From the NCBI GenBank assembly GCA_017432325.1, contig JAFRJJ010000069.1, positions 1 to 64,000 of the forward strand: DNA of 64,000 nucleotides. The letters run 5' to 3'. A model generated the notes under the pieces. That model was not told the origin of the DNA. It searched no databases and was given only the letters and a program-made list of their open reading frames with translations. Every line of letters starts with the position of its first letter. Within the stretch, counting starts at the first letter, position 1. The position numbers were made by a program, and so were the translations under genes. Shown here piece after piece: positions 19,388 through 61,233 of this stretch. The DNA is from Solobacterium sp. Lineage in GTDB: Bacteria; Bacillota_I; Bacilli_A; Erysipelotrichales; Erysipelotrichaceae.

Positions 19388-19417
19388 TCATTCCAAAAAA
19401 GGGAATGATCTTTTTTT
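19386..19417 (+). terminator. Terminator before comGA
   Basis: GATCATTCC and GGGAATGATC form a stem followed by seven T bases. Confidence 0.85.
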
Positions 19418-19445
19418 GTGCGTATTTATGAGTGAAGGGAGGAAT

Positions 19446-20426
19446 ATGGAAGAACTGCTCAAGGAATTTTTACGGACAGCGCTGAAATACGGAGCGACAG
19501 ATATCCATTTCAGTGTTGACGCGGAAGGTGTGCTGGCTGTTGAAATGAGGATCGGCGGCAGGATGTACCGTCTTCCCCAGAAGGCAGCGGACGAGCGGTT
19601 TTTCCGCTTTCTGCTGTACAGGGCGGATATGGACGTGAGCGCTGCAGCACTGCCGCAGACCGGTTCCTTTGAGATCACCGTGGACGGCAGGCGTATCGCG
19701 CTCCGGTTTGCGCTGGTCAGCGGATTTCACCAGAAAAGCGGCGTGCTTAGGATCCTCAGCAGTACGGGCAGTCTGTCTGTCAGTGATCTGAGCATGGATG
19801 AGGCGCAGGTAAATTACCTGAAAAGCATTACGGGACACAGATCCGGACTCTACGTCTTCTCCGGACCTACCGGCAGCGGCAAAACGACAACGATGTATAC
19901 GATACTCAACGAAACAACAGGAAGAAAGATCTATACGCTGGAAGATCCTGTGGAAGTATACTCCGAGAAATATGTGCAGCTTCAGGTCAATCCCCAGGCA
20001 CATCTGTCTTTTGCGGAAGGGATCCGTCAGCTGATGCGGCATGATCCGGACATCATCATGATCGGCGAGATCAGGGACGGCGAAGCTGCCAGGATGGCTG
20101 TCAGATGCGCGTTGACCGGTCATCTGGTCGTTACATCCATCCATTCCGCGGACTGTACAGGCGCGGTGCACAGGCTGCTGGATCTCGGTATCCATGAATA
20201 CCAACTGAGCGATGTTCTGTGTGGTATCACAAACCAGAGACTTTATGACAGAAAGGACAGACCCGGCAGAATCTGCGTATACGAAGTGATGGACAGGGAG
20301 GAGGTGAACTATTATTTCGGAAACCGGAAGCACAGCAGCAGATTCAAAAAACTTTCGGAAGCGGTTATGGAAGCTGTTGAAAACGGATATATCGATCTTC
20401 CGCAGGCAGCGCAGGATCTTGCTTGA
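19446..20426 (+). CDS. comGA: ComGA-type pseudopilus ATPase
   Basis: A 326-residue GspE/PilB-family ATPase that powers assembly of the competence pseudopilus for DNA uptake. Walker A is GPTGSGKT (140-147), the Walker B region is IIMIGEIRD (about 205), with the typical Asp and His boxes between and after. It is shorter than pilus PilB proteins and lacks the zinc domain, as ComGA does. The ATG at 19446 is chosen for its GGGAGG, although the spacing is short; an in-frame ATG six codons upstream is an alternative. It heads a seven-gene comG operon. I see no ComX box; any promoter would lie within or before the preceding terminator. Confidence 0.92.
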   Translation: MEELLKEFLRTALKYGATDIHFSVDAEGVLAVEMRIGGRMYRLPQKAADERFFRFLLYRADMDVSAAALPQTGSFEITVDGRRIALRFALVSGFHQKSGVLRILSSTGSLSVSDLSMDEAQVNYLKSITGHRSGLYVFSGPTGSGKTTTMYTILNETTGRKIYTLEDPVEVYSEKYVQLQVNPQAHLSFAEGIRQLMRHDPDIIMIGEIRDGEAARMAVRCALTGHLVVTSIHSADCTGAVHRLLDLGIHEYQLSDVLCGITNQRLYDRKDRPGRICVYEVMDREEVNYYFGNRKHSSRFKKLSEAVMEAVENGYIDLPQAAQDLA

Positions 20427-21393
20427 ACCGTTTGACTGTGAAGGCATTCTGTCACTCCTGAATGCCGGCTTTTCCCTGCGGCAGTGTCTCCATGTGCTGG
20501 AGGATGAACGGAATACGGAATGCTTCGCAAAGATGCGCAGCCAGCTGGAAAACGGAGAACCGGGAGACCGCGTTATGACAGACTTCTGCCCGGACAAATA
20601 CAGACGTTATCTGGAAGGGTTTATCCAGGTACTGCCGGTAAAGAAAGCGCTTGGTCTTTCCATACGGATGGCCAATGCCCGGCAGGCATCCAGAAAACAG
20701 TACCTGTCGCAGGCCGCATATCCTCTGAGCATGTTTTTACTGATGCTGTGCGGCTGTCTGCTGTTCTCGGAATTCTGTTTCCCGGCACTGCTTTCCATGA
20801 TGGAAGGATTCCGGATCGATCTCTCGTTTTACAGCCGCATTGCCTCAGCGGTACGTCTTGTCAGCAGCAGCCTGCTGGCGTTTGTGATCATTGTGCTGAT
20901 CCTGACAGCAGTCTGCACCCGTCGGAAATACCGCATCAAAGCTTATTGTTTTATCGCTTCAAAAGGGATCCTGCCTGTCATCAGGGAATATGTATCTGCC
21001 AGGTTCATCCTCTTTTACACACAGTGCATTGAAATGGACCTGCATACGATGCAGAGCCTGCAGATCCTGAAGAGCCTGGATTCCCAGCCGCTGATCAGGA
21101 TGCTGGCAGCGGGGATGGATGAAGCGCTGCGTGACGGGAACGCATTTGAGGAAGCCATGCACAGCAGGTATCTGGATCCCTCTCTCTACCGGTTTATGAG
21201 GATCGCGGTCCATACGGAAGGGGCCGGGAATATGATGAACAGTTATCTGCAGATGTCATCCCTGCGCATGCAGAGAAAACTGAAAAGATACTCGGAAGTG
21301 ATCAGGCTGGTCAGTTATGCCGGTGTGGGGGTCATGCTGATCATCGTATACCGCATCCTCATGATGCCGCTGTCCGTATTGTCAGACATATAG
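20377..21393 (+). CDS. comGB: ComGB-type pseudopilus membrane platform protein
   Basis: A 338-residue polytopic membrane protein of the GspF/PilC family, the inner-membrane platform on which the pseudopilus is built. It has hydrophobic segments at about 110-135, 160-185 and 305-335, with two similar cytoplasmic helical domains. It overlaps comGA by 50 bases and probably uses the TTG at 20377, preceded by a weak GGAAG; no ATG fits the expected N-terminus. Confidence 0.88.
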   Translation: MKTDISIFRRQRRILLEPFDCEGILSLLNAGFSLRQCLHVLEDERNTECFAKMRSQLENGEPGDRVMTDFCPDKYRRYLEGFIQVLPVKKALGLSIRMANARQASRKQYLSQAAYPLSMFLLMLCGCLLFSEFCFPALLSMMEGFRIDLSFYSRIASAVRLVSSSLLAFVIIVLILTAVCTRRKYRIKAYCFIASKGILPVIREYVSARFILFYTQCIEMDLHTMQSLQILKSLDSQPLIRMLAAGMDEALRDGNAFEEAMHSRYLDPSLYRFMRIAVHTEGAGNMMNSYLQMSSLRMQRKLKRYSEVIRLVSYAGVGVMLIIVYRILMMPLSVLSDI

Positions 21394-21402
21394 GAGGTGC
21401 TG

Positions 21403-21696
21403 ATGAAAAAAGGTTTTACATTGCTTGAAATGATCATTGTAGTAACGATCGTATCGATTCTGTTCATCCTGTCTGTTCCGAATATCCAGAAGGTGCTCGG
21501 GATCGTAAATGAAAAAGGCTGTGACGCACTGGTGAAAGTCGTGGATTCCGCGATCCTGGAATACAGGCTTGCTTATGACAGGGATCCCAACAGTGTCAAT
21601 GACCTGATCAATGAAGGACTGATGAGTGATGTTCAGAGAACTTGTGAAGACGGCAGGACGGTCTCGATCTACAACGGGCAGGCACAGGCGAACTGA
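21403..21696 (+). CDS. comGC: ComGC-type major pseudopilin
   Basis: A 97-residue pilin with a class III leader MKKG, cleaved by prepilin peptidase before FTLLEM, and a hydrophobic helix with Glu5. It forms the main fibre of the competence pseudopilus. AGGAGG overlaps the comGB stop and sets the start at 21403. Confidence 0.93.
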   Translation: MKKGFTLLEMIIVVTIVSILFILSVPNIQKVLGIVNEKGCDALVKVVDSAILEYRLAYDRDPNSVNDLINEGLMSDVQRTCEDGRTVSIYNGQAQAN

Positions 21697-22015
21697 GGGC
21701 TATGTGCTTCTGCAGCTGCTGATCAGCCTGTCCGTCCTGTCCGTTCTCGGACTGCTGGGACTGCAGTCAGCCCGTTATTCACGCGGAGCTTTTTCGATGT
21801 TTCCCGACCGCTATCTGGAAGTACAGTCAGAAGCGATCCTGCATGCCGGCAGCAGGTCGTTTACAGCAGAAGATGACAGACGGACACCGATCGGCTTCAA
21901 CCGTTATGGGAATGCCGCGCATGTCGGGACGATCACATTTTCAGACGGCAGGAAAACATATACGGCGGTGATCGAACTGGGAGGCGGAAGACTGGTCTTC
22001 CGGGATGAGAGATGA
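21629..22015 (+). CDS. ComGD-like minor pseudopilin
   Basis: A 128-residue protein with a longer basic leader of about 22 residues ending in TEG, cleaved before YVLLQLLISLSVL. Gln replaces the usual Glu5, which is unusual. It starts inside comGC, with a 68-bp overlap in another frame, which fits the comGD position. It is probably a minor subunit that caps or primes the fibre. Confidence 0.72.
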   Translation: MFRELVKTAGRSRSTTGRHRRTEGYVLLQLLISLSVLSVLGLLGLQSARYSRGAFSMFPDRYLEVQSEAILHAGSRSFTAEDDRRTPIGFNRYGNAAHVGTITFSDGRKTYTAVIELGGGRLVFRDER

Positions 22016-22218
22016 GCCTGATGGATCTGCTCGCAGGACTGGCGGTTCTGTCTGTCTCTGTCATCCTGACAGTATCCGCTGTACGCACTTCATGCGATTC
22101 CGCGGAGCTGATCAGAAGACGCTCACAGGAAATGAACGATACTCACAGACAGATCAGTGAAAGGATCACATCATGCGTCATATGCGAAACAGAAGCGGAT
22201 TCTTCACCTTTGAACTGA
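22012..22218 (+). CDS. ComGE-position small pseudopilin-like protein without a leader
   Basis: A 68-residue protein that begins directly with the hydrophobic helix (MSLMDLLAGLAVLSVSVILTV). It has no Lys-rich leader and no Gly cleavage site, and an upstream stop in the same frame excludes a longer form. Counting from Met1, Asp stands at position 5 where pilins have Glu. It overlaps both neighbours (ATGA with the upstream gene) and fills the comGE slot. It is either an atypical subunit that needs no processing or a decaying gene. Confidence 0.6.
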   Translation: MSLMDLLAGLAVLSVSVILTVSAVRTSCDSAELIRRRSQEMNDTHRQISERITSCVICETEADSSPLN

Positions 22219-22574
22219 TATTCGTACTCTCCGCGTGTATGTTCCTGATGCCTGCGGCATTTGCCTGTCTGAAACTGCTGATCCCACTGACAGAATTTAA
22301 CGAGGAGATCCAGGATGAGATCGCGCTGTGCCAGCTGAGGCACATTCTGATCGTATCGGACAGTTTCCGGATCACTCCGCAGGAAGTTCATTTTATCTAT
22401 CATGAAGAGGAAAATGTACTGCGCTTTGTCAATAACCATCTGATCCTTTCACCGGGTACACAGATCATCCTTTCGGACATCTCAGGCATTGTGTTCAGCG
22501 GATCCGGAGAGATCCTGGTGCTGAAATACAGCAGGGAAGGCAGGGAAACAGAACGGGTGCTGGTGCATGTATAA
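22173..22574 (+). CDS. comGF: ComGF-type minor pseudopilin
   Basis: A 133-residue protein with leader MRHMRNRSG, cleaved before FFTFELIFVL, keeping Glu5. The soluble domain is mostly beta strands, in line with ComGF. AAAGGA lies before the ATG. It overlaps both neighbours within the comG operon. Confidence 0.8.
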   Translation: MRHMRNRSGFFTFELIFVLSACMFLMPAAFACLKLLIPLTEFNEEIQDEIALCQLRHILIVSDSFRITPQEVHFIYHEEENVLRFVNNHLILSPGTQIILSDISGIVFSGSGEILVLKYSREGRETERVLVHV

Positions 22575-22926
22575 AAAGGGATCTGTCAGTACCTATTTTC
22601 TGAGCATCTTCATTCTGATCACGTCTGTGATCGCGGTCATTGCGGAAAACAGCATATCCCGTTTAAGAGCGCTGAGCAATCTCATAAAGATCAATGACTA
22701 TCTGTCTGCCGAAGAAGCAGTGATCAGATACATCGGCTGTGAGCTGAAAAACGGTGTTCCTGTATCCGGCTTCTATACATATGCCGGAGTATCGTTCCGG
22801 GCCGAGTGCGGGATGGATTCCTGCCTTGTTACGATCAGTGATCCGGTCAGTGAAATGCTGGATATACAGCTGTATGGAAATGACAGACATATCTATGATT
22901 ATGTCCCTGTACGTGCAGAGGATTAA
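22567..22926 (+). CDS. ComGG-position minor pseudopilin-like protein
   Basis: A 119-residue protein with a short basic start (MYKKG) and one hydrophobic helix (STYFLSIFILITSVIAVIA), followed by a small soluble domain with two close cysteines. The GS junction may be the processing site. It is last in the comG operon, the comGG slot. Sequence conservation of ComGG is poor in general, so the call rests on position and layout. Confidence 0.65.
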   Translation: MYKKGSVSTYFLSIFILITSVIAVIAENSISRLRALSNLIKINDYLSAEEAVIRYIGCELKNGVPVSGFYTYAGVSFRAECGMDSCLVTISDPVSEMLDIQLYGNDRHIYDYVPVRAED

Positions 22927-22963: not shown

Positions 22964-22991
22964 TTGACAAAAGAGACCATTCTTATAAAAT
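22964..22991 (+). promoter_or_regulatory. Promoter of efp
   Basis: Perfect TTGACA (22964-22969) and TAAAAT (22986-22991) with a 16-base spacer, 22 bases before the efp start. Confidence 0.8.
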
Positions 22992-23012
22992 AATGACGTA
23001 GGAGCATAAAAT

Positions 23013-23576
23013 ATGATTATTGTTAATGATTTAAGACCCGGAACATCGTTTGAATATGAGAATAACCTTTATACTGTTCTCAATCTTGATCTGAACAAAA
23101 CTGCCATGAGACAGATGGTCGTAAAGGCAAAGGTCAAGAATCTGCGTACCGGTGTTATCAACGAGATCTCCTTCACCGGAGGGGATAAAGTTGAACCTGC
23201 GCATATCGAAAAGAAAGAGATGCAGTACCTTTATGATGACGGTGAAGCACTGGTATTTATGGATACCGAGACATATGAACAGATCGAAATTCCCAAGAGC
23301 AATCTTGAATGGGAACTGAAATTCATGAAAGAAAATGACATGGTCAACATCACGATGTACAACAACGAGATCCTCGGCGTGATCCTGCCGGATAAAGTTG
23401 CTCTTCAGATCGTGGAATGCGAGCAGGCAGTAAAAGGTGATACTGTGTCAGGTTCAGCAAAGACAAAGAATGCCAAGGTAGAAACAGGTCTGGATATCAA
23501 AGTACCCATGTTCATCGAAAACGGTGAGATCGTTCTGGTATCCACAGCAGACGGTAAGTATTCAGGCAGAGCGTAA
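23013..23576 (+). CDS. efp: Elongation factor P with a non-lysine active loop
   Basis: A 187-residue translation factor that relieves ribosome stalling at polyproline stretches, with the three EF-P beta-barrel domains at normal length. Without gaps against the Bacillus protein, the loop KPGKG becomes KTAMR: Met32 stands where the lysine or arginine that receives the activating modification is normally found. The rest is well conserved, including MQYLYDDGE, VKGDT and the C-terminal GKYSGRA. It therefore probably works unmodified or in another way. It has its own promoter and terminator. The next gene product is rich in proline. Confidence 0.93.
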   Translation: MIIVNDLRPGTSFEYENNLYTVLNLDLNKTAMRQMVVKAKVKNLRTGVINEISFTGGDKVEPAHIEKKEMQYLYDDGEALVFMDTETYEQIEIPKSNLEWELKFMKENDMVNITMYNNEILGVILPDKVALQIVECEQAVKGDTVSGSAKTKNAKVETGLDIKVPMFIENGEIVLVSTADGKYSGRA

Positions 23577-23603
23577 AATGTGCTGATAAAGCACATTTTG
23601 TTT
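23575..23603 (+). terminator. Terminator after efp
   Basis: AAAATGTGC and GCACATTTT pair and are followed by GTTT. It overlaps the efp stop. Confidence 0.7.
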
Positions 23604-58620: not shown

Positions 58621-61233
58621 ATGGAAAAGAATCTGGAAACAAAATACGACCATCTGAAGGTCGAATCCGGGAAGTATGACGAATGGGTGAAAAAGGGTTA
58701 TTTCACTGCCGGGGACAAATCAAAGGATCCGTTTACGATCGTCATTCCGCCGCCGAATGTCACGGGCATTCTGCATATCGGACACGCATGGGACAACACG
58801 CTGCAGGATATCATTACCCGCTATAAGAGAATGCAGGGATATGACATGCTGTATCTGCCGGGCATGGACCATGCAGGTATCGCGACACAGGCAAGAGTCG
58901 ACGCAAGACTGAAGTCCGAAGGTACGAACCGCTATGAGATCGGCCGTGAAAAGTTCCTGGAACGAGCATGGGAATGGAAAGAGGAATATGCCGCAACGAT
59001 CCGCAAACAGTGGGCGAAACTCGGCAATTCTCTGGACTATACAAGAGAACGCTTTACGATGGACGAGGGCTTCAACGCTGCTGTCAGACATGTATTTGTC
59101 ACGCTGTACAATGAGGGACTGATCTACCGCGGCTGGAGGATCATCAACTGGGATCCGGTTGCCCGTACTGCCCTCAGCAATATCGAGGTTTACCATCAGA
59201 ACGACCCCGGCAAGATGTACTACTTCAAATACCATGTAGTGGATTCCGAAGAGACATTTACAGTCGCTACAACAAGACCGGAAACGATGTTCGGTGACGT
59301 ATGCGTCGTTGTCAATCCGGAAGATCCCAGATTCAAGCACCTGATCGGAAAGAAGGCGGTCAACCCGGCAAACGGGGAAGTGCTTGAGATCATCGCGGAC
59401 GACTATGTCGATGTGGAATTCGGTACCGGTGCGATGAAGTGCACGCCGGCGCACGACCCCAACGACTTCCTGATCGCTGAAAGACACGGTCTGCCGAAAC
59501 CCATCTGCATGAACCCGGACGGAACGATGAACGCGCTGGCCGGGGAATTCGAGGGCATGGACCGTTACGAATGCAGAGACCGCCTGACTGAACGCATTGA
59601 GTCAGAAGGCAACCTGGTCAAGATCGAAGATATCCAGCATGATGTCGGACACTCCGAACGCACGCACTGCGTCGTTGAACCGTATCTTTCCCAGCAGTGG
59701 TTCGTCAAGATGAAGCCGCTGGCACAGGATGTCCTGGATCATCAGGATGATCCGGACCAGAAGATCACATTCTATCCCGAGCGTTTTGAGCGTACATTCT
59801 CACAGTGGCTGGAGAATATCGAAGACTGGTGCATCTCCAGACAGCTCTGGTGGGGACACAGGATCCCGGCATGGTACAACAATACGACAGGGGAGACCTA
59901 TGTCGGTGATACGGAACCGGAAGATATCGAAAACTGGACACAGGATGAAGACGTCCTGGATACATGGTTCTCCAGCGCTCTTTGGCCATTCGCAACACTG
60001 GGCTGGCCCGAGGAAACAGATGATTACCATCATTTCTATCCGACGACCACGATGGTCACCGGATATGACATCATCTTCTTCTGGGTCGCAAGAATGGCGT
60101 TCCAGGCAAGACACTTTACACATGACCGTCCGTTCAGGGATGTCCTGATCCACGGCCTGATCCGTGACGCGCAGGGCCGCAAGATGTCCAAATCACTGGG
60201 CAACGGCATCGACCCGATGCAGGTCATCGATGAGTACGGTGTCGACGCGCTGAGATTCTTCCTCACGACAAACTCCACGCCCGGCCAGGATATGCGTTAT
60301 ATCCCCGAAAAGGTCGAGGCGGCATGGAACTTCATCAACAAGATCTGGAATGCGAGCAGGTTCGTCCTCATGAATCTGCCGGAAGGCATGAGCGCGGATG
60401 ATATCGATCTGAGTCACCTGTCACTGGCCGATACATGGATCCTGAACAAACTGAATGAAACGATCGCGCATGTCAACGCGAACATGGATAAGTATGAGTT
60501 CGCGCTTGTCGGCAACGAACTGTACGCATTCGTCTGGGATGATTTCTGCAGCTGGTATGTGGAAATGAGCAAGGCAAGCCTGTCTTCCGATGATCCTGAA
60601 GTCGTCAAGGCGGCACAGTCCACGCTTTACATCATGCTGGACCATATCGTCAGACTGCTGCATCCGTTCATGCCGTTTGTAACGGAAGAGATCTTCGGCA
60701 TGCTGAATGAGAAAGAAGAAAGCATCTGCATCGCGAAATGGGCTGAAACGGTCGAAGGCCTGCCTGCATGCGATATGGAATCCATGGAGCGCCTGATCTC
60801 GATTATCAAGAAGACAAGAGAAGTCAAGATCGCAAACGATTTGAAGCCGGGTGCGCATCTGGATATCCTTGTCAAGGATATTGACAACCAGCTGATCGAA
60901 CCGGATGAACAGCTGAGCTCGATCCTGGAGCGTATGGCAAAAACAACATGGAAGTCTTCGCTGGACGGCGACCTGACTGTACATCCCGTCAAGTCCGGAT
61001 CCATCTATATTCCTTCCGAACAGCTGCTTGATAAAGCTGCTGAGATCGCAAAACTGACGAGTGAAAAAACACGTCTGGAAAGCGAGATCAAGCGTTCAAC
61101 GGGTATCCTTTCCAATCAGGGATTCCTGGCAAAAGCGCCTGCCGCAAAAGTCGAGACCGAAAAGAAAAAACTCGACGATTACAAAAAGCAATATGATGTC
61201 GTTATTGCGAGATTGCAGGCTTTAAACGTATAA
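58621..61233 (+). CDS. valS: Valyl-tRNA synthetase
   Basis: An 870-residue class I synthetase that charges tRNA-Val. HIGH motif HIGHAWDNTLQ (about 46), a large editing domain (~180-330, with TTRPETMFGD), KMSKS at RKMSKSLGNG (about 520), and a C-terminal coiled-coil arm (~805-870). AGGAGG precedes the ATG. It is controlled by the valine T-box. Confidence 0.97.
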   Translation: MEKNLETKYDHLKVESGKYDEWVKKGYFTAGDKSKDPFTIVIPPPNVTGILHIGHAWDNTLQDIITRYKRMQGYDMLYLPGMDHAGIATQARVDARLKSEGTNRYEIGREKFLERAWEWKEEYAATIRKQWAKLGNSLDYTRERFTMDEGFNAAVRHVFVTLYNEGLIYRGWRIINWDPVARTALSNIEVYHQNDPGKMYYFKYHVVDSEETFTVATTRPETMFGDVCVVVNPEDPRFKHLIGKKAVNPANGEVLEIIADDYVDVEFGTGAMKCTPAHDPNDFLIAERHGLPKPICMNPDGTMNALAGEFEGMDRYECRDRLTERIESEGNLVKIEDIQHDVGHSERTHCVVEPYLSQQWFVKMKPLAQDVLDHQDDPDQKITFYPERFERTFSQWLENIEDWCISRQLWWGHRIPAWYNNTTGETYVGDTEPEDIENWTQDEDVLDTWFSSALWPFATLGWPEETDDYHHFYPTTTMVTGYDIIFFWVARMAFQARHFTHDRPFRDVLIHGLIRDAQGRKMSKSLGNGIDPMQVIDEYGVDALRFFLTTNSTPGQDMRYIPEKVEAAWNFINKIWNASRFVLMNLPEGMSADDIDLSHLSLADTWILNKLNETIAHVNANMDKYEFALVGNELYAFVWDDFCSWYVEMSKASLSSDDPEVVKAAQSTLYIMLDHIVRLLHPFMPFVTEEIFGMLNEKEESICIAKWAETVEGLPACDMESMERLISIIKKTREVKIANDLKPGAHLDILVKDIDNQLIEPDEQLSSILERMAKTTWKSSLDGDLTVHPVKSGSIYIPSEQLLDKAAEIAKLTSEKTRLESEIKRSTGILSNQGFLAKAPAAKVETEKKKLDDYKKQYDVVIARLQALNV

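Follow-up and report, generated by a model that had tools for sequence, protein, structure and literature searches.

It is an open question in the field why, and indeed whether, the ribosome-rescue factor EF-P needs to be modified; more than half of bacteria are reported to encode no known EF-P modification enzyme (PMC6544042). The gene considered here, efp of the gut bacterium Solobacterium sp., lies in a 64,000-nucleotide stretch of genomic DNA that was analysed as a whole (the window), and it encodes methionine at the place of the lysine that is ordinarily modified. Is its product a working EF-P and, if so, does it work unmodified, through some other chemistry, or only beside a second copy?

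The efp gene and its product

The features of the locus are as follows.

19416..22926, + strand: comG-like pilin/secretion genes upstream of efp (sequence reading)
22964..22991, + strand: promoter-like site before efp, TTGACA-16-TAAAAT (11 of 12 matches)
23000..23004, + strand: ribosome-binding site AGGAG, 8 nt before the ATG (sequence reading)
23013..23576, + strand: efp, encoding the Met32 EF-P of 187 amino acids (open frame, EF-P profile matches)
23097..23117, + strand: tip loop K29-M35 (KTAMRQM), seven residues between two strands (sequence and AlphaFold model)
23106..23108, + strand: Met32 codon ATG, where the modified lysine would be encoded (alignment to S. aureus EF-P)
23109..23111, + strand: Arg33 codon, candidate functional tip residue (basic residue at 32, 33 or 34 in 108/108 lineage members)
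23436..23444, + strand: Gly-Asp-Thr motif of domain III, residues 142-144, retained here but lost from the Lys paralog
23574..23600, + strand: 11-bp hairpin after the efp stop, terminator-like (z -3.8)

The upstream genes are presumably comG-like, a naming that draws on the sequence. Shuffled sequence yields 2.2 promoter-like sites at nine or more matches, and the site before efp is suggestive only. The hairpin, which is absent from the terminator-scan listing, stands right after the efp stop and so suggests a single-gene transcript; taken with the promoter-like site and the good ribosome-binding site in front, it suggests that efp is a gene of its own.

The protein is a full-length match to the EF-P equivalog (NCBIfam TIGR00038, 221.2 bits against a cut-off of 185.8), in which all three EF-P Pfam domains (PF08207, PF01132 and PF09285) are matched and the tip loop has seven residues. 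Its AlphaFold model (mean pLDDT 85) has the EF-P fold, with a normally sized loop between strands 18-28 and 36-43, and its closest matches in the PDB are EF-Ps. Residues 29-33 read K29-T30-A31-M32-R33 (codons 23097-23111); the alignment to S. aureus EF-P (6rk3) is ungapped across the tip, so that M32 occupies the position of the modified lysine. A preliminary description of this DNA had noted the change of the tip from KPGKG to KTAMR in an otherwise well conserved protein, and both points are borne out, the Gly-Asp-Thr motif being kept and purifying selection strong. The likeness to the canonical Lys-type EF-P of E. coli, B. subtilis and S. aureus thus extends to the three domains, the loop length, the Gly-Asp-Thr motif and the fold, but there is no lysine at 32 and Thr30-Ala31 replaces Pro-Gly. 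Where a lysine-modified EF-P has lysine at the tip and proline two residues earlier, the window protein has Met32 and Thr30, and it likewise has Met32 where an arginine-rhamnosylated EF-P has arginine. Identity as EfpL or YeiP was considered and rejected, both scores being below their cut-offs (EfpL 122.9 of 216 bits, YeiP 107.6 of 264). An EF-P at 99% identity to the window copy occurs in a Solobacterium sp. MAG from dairy cattle.

The gene after efp had been described as rich in Glu and Pro without long proline runs. This is accurate (896 amino acids, 181 Glu, 89 Pro, two PP and no PPP), and the gene is not a conserved neighbour of the lineage's EF-P. Elsewhere in the window, the ORF at 58621-61233, which we take to be ValS-like, contains IPPPNV, the only PPP among the 57 predicted genes of the window; the genome therefore has a classical EF-P client.

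Distribution of the lysine-free tips

Within the order, a pattern search for KTAMR followed by R-T-G matched 73 of 244 genomes, belonging to 22 of 72 genera; the reversed control pattern had no match among the 244. Since the five residues recur with R-T-G correctly spaced, KTAMR is not a sequencing slip, and assembly error was rejected as its source. A pseudogene reading of efp was also dropped, because the gene recurs in these 73 genomes and is constrained (dN/dS near 0.02). Some form of EF-P was present in 232 of the 244 genomes, the 12 without a match being probably incomplete or missed and not counted as lacking EF-P. Amongst the 73 KTAMR genomes, 37 have two or more EF-Ps and 36 have one, and 20 of these 36 are at least 95% complete, with one genome (G060) consisting of a single contig. 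The KTAMR EF-P must therefore be able to serve alone.

One check proposed in the preliminary description was whether KTAMR is fixed in a clade. Across Erysipelotrichia it is not, being one among several lysine-free tips of a single lineage: looser patterns recovered the sister tips KTAMAK, KTARS, KTARA and KTAQR, together with KTGRQ and KTAMREG in small-genome families. A further draw of 314 genomes, all of the same class, gave 57 matches, with Met tips in families f1, f8, f19 and f23 and with one match (G274) that looks like chance. Two Bacilli EF-Ps from outside the lineage (L152 and L153) have the tips KTAKA and KTARS, further departures from KPGKG, and the EF-Ps of Acholeplasmatales and Anaeroplasma (L208:2655-3203 and L209:4001-4555) have a tip loop that is one residue shorter, HVLQNKVAY, without Pro-Gly.

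The descent of these proteins was followed in a tree of 120 EF-P loci, which were chosen to cover the observed tips. All 72 lysine-free EF-Ps form one clade (SH-aLRT 100) and 33 KPGKG EF-Ps with a neighbouring SDR reductase gene form a second (SH-aLRT 99), both separate from the class's other KPGKG EF-Ps. Where neighbours are readable, in a view that omits seven lysine-free loci with no EF-P in their gene list, the lysine-free efp is usually found within the order at a comG-like locus, and from this shared locus the gene looks inherited. On the best reading, the Met32 EF-P is the general EF-P of Erysipelotrichales and their relatives, passed on by vertical descent. The Lys copy has been gained or lost at least 12 times on the tree, and within one genus some strains have the lysine-free EF-P alone and their close relatives have both.

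The comparison of the tips themselves took in 108 lysine-free sequences, of which 72 had been collected by their tip and a scan of named contigs supplied the other 36. Position 32 is Met, Arg or Gln in this clade and never Lys, and positions 32-34 read MRQ (40 sequences), RSA (14), RAA (13), MRK (13), MAK (12), RQQ (6), QRQ (4) or RLS (2), with MRG, MRE, RAQ and RSQ found once each. The 37 sequences with Arg32 have no basic residue at 33 or 34, and the other 71 all have one there; that is, a basic residue stands at 32 or at 33/34, and never at both, in 108 of 108. Arg33 is encoded by both AGR and CGN codons. It looks as though one basic side chain has shifted by one or two places along the tip, and the Arg33 adjoining Met32 looks more telling than the methionine itself. 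It should be noted that the switch between a basic residue at 32 and one at 33/34 accounts for only three changes on the tree, one of them on well supported branches, and for this reason the shift is a pattern that is not statistically proven.

The Lys-tip paralog and its probable modification genes

The genome to which the window belongs (3.3 Mb, 94.7% complete) has exactly one further EF-P match; it lies on contig 45, is 40% identical to the Met32 EF-P and carries the canonical tip KPGKG. This copy reads K-T-G after the tip; the strict R-T-G form of the pattern missed it, and the KPGKG survey was run with a looser one. Of the two circumstances that the preliminary description had set against its own proposal, a second canonical EF-P is thus present, but the loss of constraint on the Met copy that was to go with it is not. 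In the three genome pairs close enough for dN/dS to be measured, the Met copy gave 0.019, 0.011 and 0.040 and the Lys copy 0.052, 0.000 and 0.027 (the closest pair being that with 0.019 against 0.052). When 16 genomes were compared in all 120 pairings, pN averaged 0.143 in the Met copy and 0.173 in the Lys copy. Purifying selection on the Met copy is strong and has not been relaxed.

An SDR reductase gene follows the EF-P on contig 45, its longest ORF beginning within the last EF-P codons. The reductase scores 158.6 bits to YmfI, below the cut-off of 238, and its sequence retains what we take to be the Y-x-x-x-K motif. In the SDR-linked clade as a whole, KPGKG is kept in all 33 Lys-tip EF-Ps and the SDR is adjacent and on the same strand in all 33; no SDR was found beside EF-P at the 72 lysine-free loci or at the 13 other KPGKG loci. 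The G-D/N-T motif of domain III is lost in 31 of the 33 SDR-linked paralogs and retained by the lysine-free lineage (Gly in 72/72, Asp or Asn in 72/72). A gene for a PnuC-like transporter, of a family that carries NAD precursors, adjoins the Lys-tip EF-P cassette in eight of ten inspected genomes. The conserved arrangement, seen at L159:7053-11013 and also in L160-L164 and L166-L167, consists of the PnuC-like transporter, the Lys-tip EF-P, the SDR and a convergent YnbB gene; the L159 transporter is much extended at its N-terminus.

In B. subtilis, ynbB, gsaB and ymfI are reported to be strictly required for placing 5-aminopentanol on EF-P (PMC5885033). YnbB and EpmA were sought in 62 chosen genomes. 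A YnbB family protein (490-523 bits) is encoded by all 30 genomes with two EF-Ps and by the Lys-only genome G017, and by none of the 30 with a lysine-free EF-P alone; one genome without YnbB (G122) stands outside the two sets of 30 because its tip was not read. All 30 two-EF-P genomes have the YnbB gene and the Lys-tip codons on one contig, no more than 1.5 kb apart in 23 of them and no more than 9 kb apart in 29. On the tree, YnbB and the Lys copy show at least 12 concordant gains or losses, and all 7 independent pairs on well supported branches agree (sign test, p 0.016). The test took in the genomes whose lysine-free EF-P was fetched, 27 of the 30 with two copies and 29 of the 30 with one. 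EpmA was above the cut-off in none of the 62 genomes, E. coli being among the controls that matched. By these two markers, enzymes of lysine modification do not accompany the lysine-free EF-P, a further difference from the canonical Lys-type factor; of the two, YnbB was found, and this only alongside the Lys-tip EF-P.

The remaining Bacillus genes were poor guides. YmfI was above the cut-off in none of 108 genomes, and it was given up as a marker of lysine modification since matches near the cut-off also occur without a Lys copy; three genomes with only a lysine-free EF-P (G028, G035 and G060) encode YmfI-like reductases of 203-231 bits, just under it. GsaB, too, was abandoned as a marker, having no association with the Lys copy (14 of the 30 genomes with two copies had a match, as did 10 of the 30 with a lysine-free EF-P alone, most of the matches being weak). 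The Lys paralog thus resembles the B. subtilis 5-aminopentanol system (YmfI, YnbB and GsaB; PMC5885033) in its coupling to YnbB and an SDR reductase, but differs in that the SDR falls under the YmfI cut-off and the window's genome lacks GsaB. To judge from these gene associations, modification of the Lys copy probably depends on YnbB and follows a route not quite identical to that of Bacillus, a route that probably does not act on the Met copy.

How the Met32 EF-P may work

On balance, we lean towards the view that the Met32 EF-P works without lysine modification, a neighbouring Arg or Lys serving the tip, and that the Lys copy is a modified accessory partner. Like other EF-Ps, the Met32 protein would enter the E site next to peptidyl-tRNA-Pro, and it would aid Pro-Pro bond formation without modification at 32, the CCA end being touched by the side chain of Arg33 (Lys34 or Arg32 in sister tips). 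The Lys-tip paralog would act separately, as an accessory factor with a YnbB/SDR-dependent modification on its Lys32, and the work may be divided between the two copies. A precedent for the proposed mode is provided by EfpL, which is reported to function with an unmodified tip arginine, Arg33 (PMC11611912). The analogy with EfpL/YeiP would lie in the lack of modification and in an arginine near the tip; unlike the Met32 EF-P, EfpL has a longer loop and a branch of its own (PMC11611912). Counting against the idea, E. coli EF-P is reported to lose its activity with K34M and likewise with the loop changes P32S and G33A (PMC6544042). These are single changes in a KPGKG loop, whereas in the Met32 EF-P the whole loop is changed. 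Also against it are the unproven shift of the basic residue, the YmfI-like proteins of three genomes with only a lysine-free EF-P, and GsaB, which Bacillus strictly requires for the modification but which the window's genome lacks.

The alternative left by the preliminary description, an unmodified factor or another chemistry, still stands, its interpretation being partly supported overall and the unmodified option favoured. We think it unlikely that Met32 or Arg33 (in sister tips, Arg32) is the substrate of a novel modification enzyme, one that places a sugar on arginine, for example. The Arg or Lys present at 32-34 in every lysine-free tip could be a shared target, and Arg32 EF-Ps elsewhere are reported to be rhamnosylated (PMC6544042, PMC11611912), but the position of such a target would then vary by as much as two residues between tips. 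EarP, moreover, was found in none of 108 genomes, a weak negative in that no control genome matched either, and Mollicutes are reported all to have EF-P with homologs of the beta-lysylation enzymes absent (Grosjean et al. 2014, PMC4014445). Equally doubtful, in our judgement, is a division of labour in which, where a genome has two EF-Ps, Pro-Pro stalls are rescued by the Lys copy, the Met copy having drifted towards some other function on the ribosome. The Lys copy does keep KPGKG throughout its clade and has enzymes of its own; yet the Met copy is the sole EF-P in 36 of 73 genomes and is conserved like the Lys copy, as the pN values indicate, and it is to the Lys copy that the loss of the Gly-Asp-Thr motif and the turnover by gain and loss belong. 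That the Met copy is decaying or spurious might be supposed from the loss of the key residue and the canonical copy in the same genome, but the open frame, the conserved neighbourhood, a dN/dS near 0.02 and its place as sole EF-P elsewhere refute this.

More tentatively, the preferred reading of an unmodified Met32 EF-P can be extended. It is possible that the lineage has uncoupled EF-P from modification, such that a bare Arg or Lys works at 32, 33 or 34 and Met32 is a spacer, and that an exchangeable cassette (PnuC-like transporter, Lys-tip EF-P, SDR and YnbB) adds a second EF-P bearing a shortened, GsaB-independent relative of 5-aminopentanol, probably an undescribed chemical group.

Met tips themselves are already published. 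They were recorded as a rare subtype, 0.77% of 1166 sequences (Volkwein et al. 2019, PMC6544042), which resembles the Met32 EF-P in having Met at the tip and no Pro two residues earlier, and are also listed in PMC11611912; the passages of the former that treat the subtype give no lineage, neighbouring residue or second copy for it. No paper was found on the lineage, the shifting basic residue or the EF-P/SDR/YnbB cassette, in a search that covered mainly the main texts of openly available papers. What is new here is the context, namely the lineage, the sole-copy genomes and the pairing of the Lys-tip EF-P with SDR and YnbB.

This context bears on the need for EF-P modification. Strains with the lysine-free EF-P as their sole copy are a natural test of whether an unmodified EF-P suffices, and the lysine-free tip variants are a natural mutagenesis series. 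The YnbB-SDR cassette, for its part, points to a modification that would be readable by mass spectrometry.
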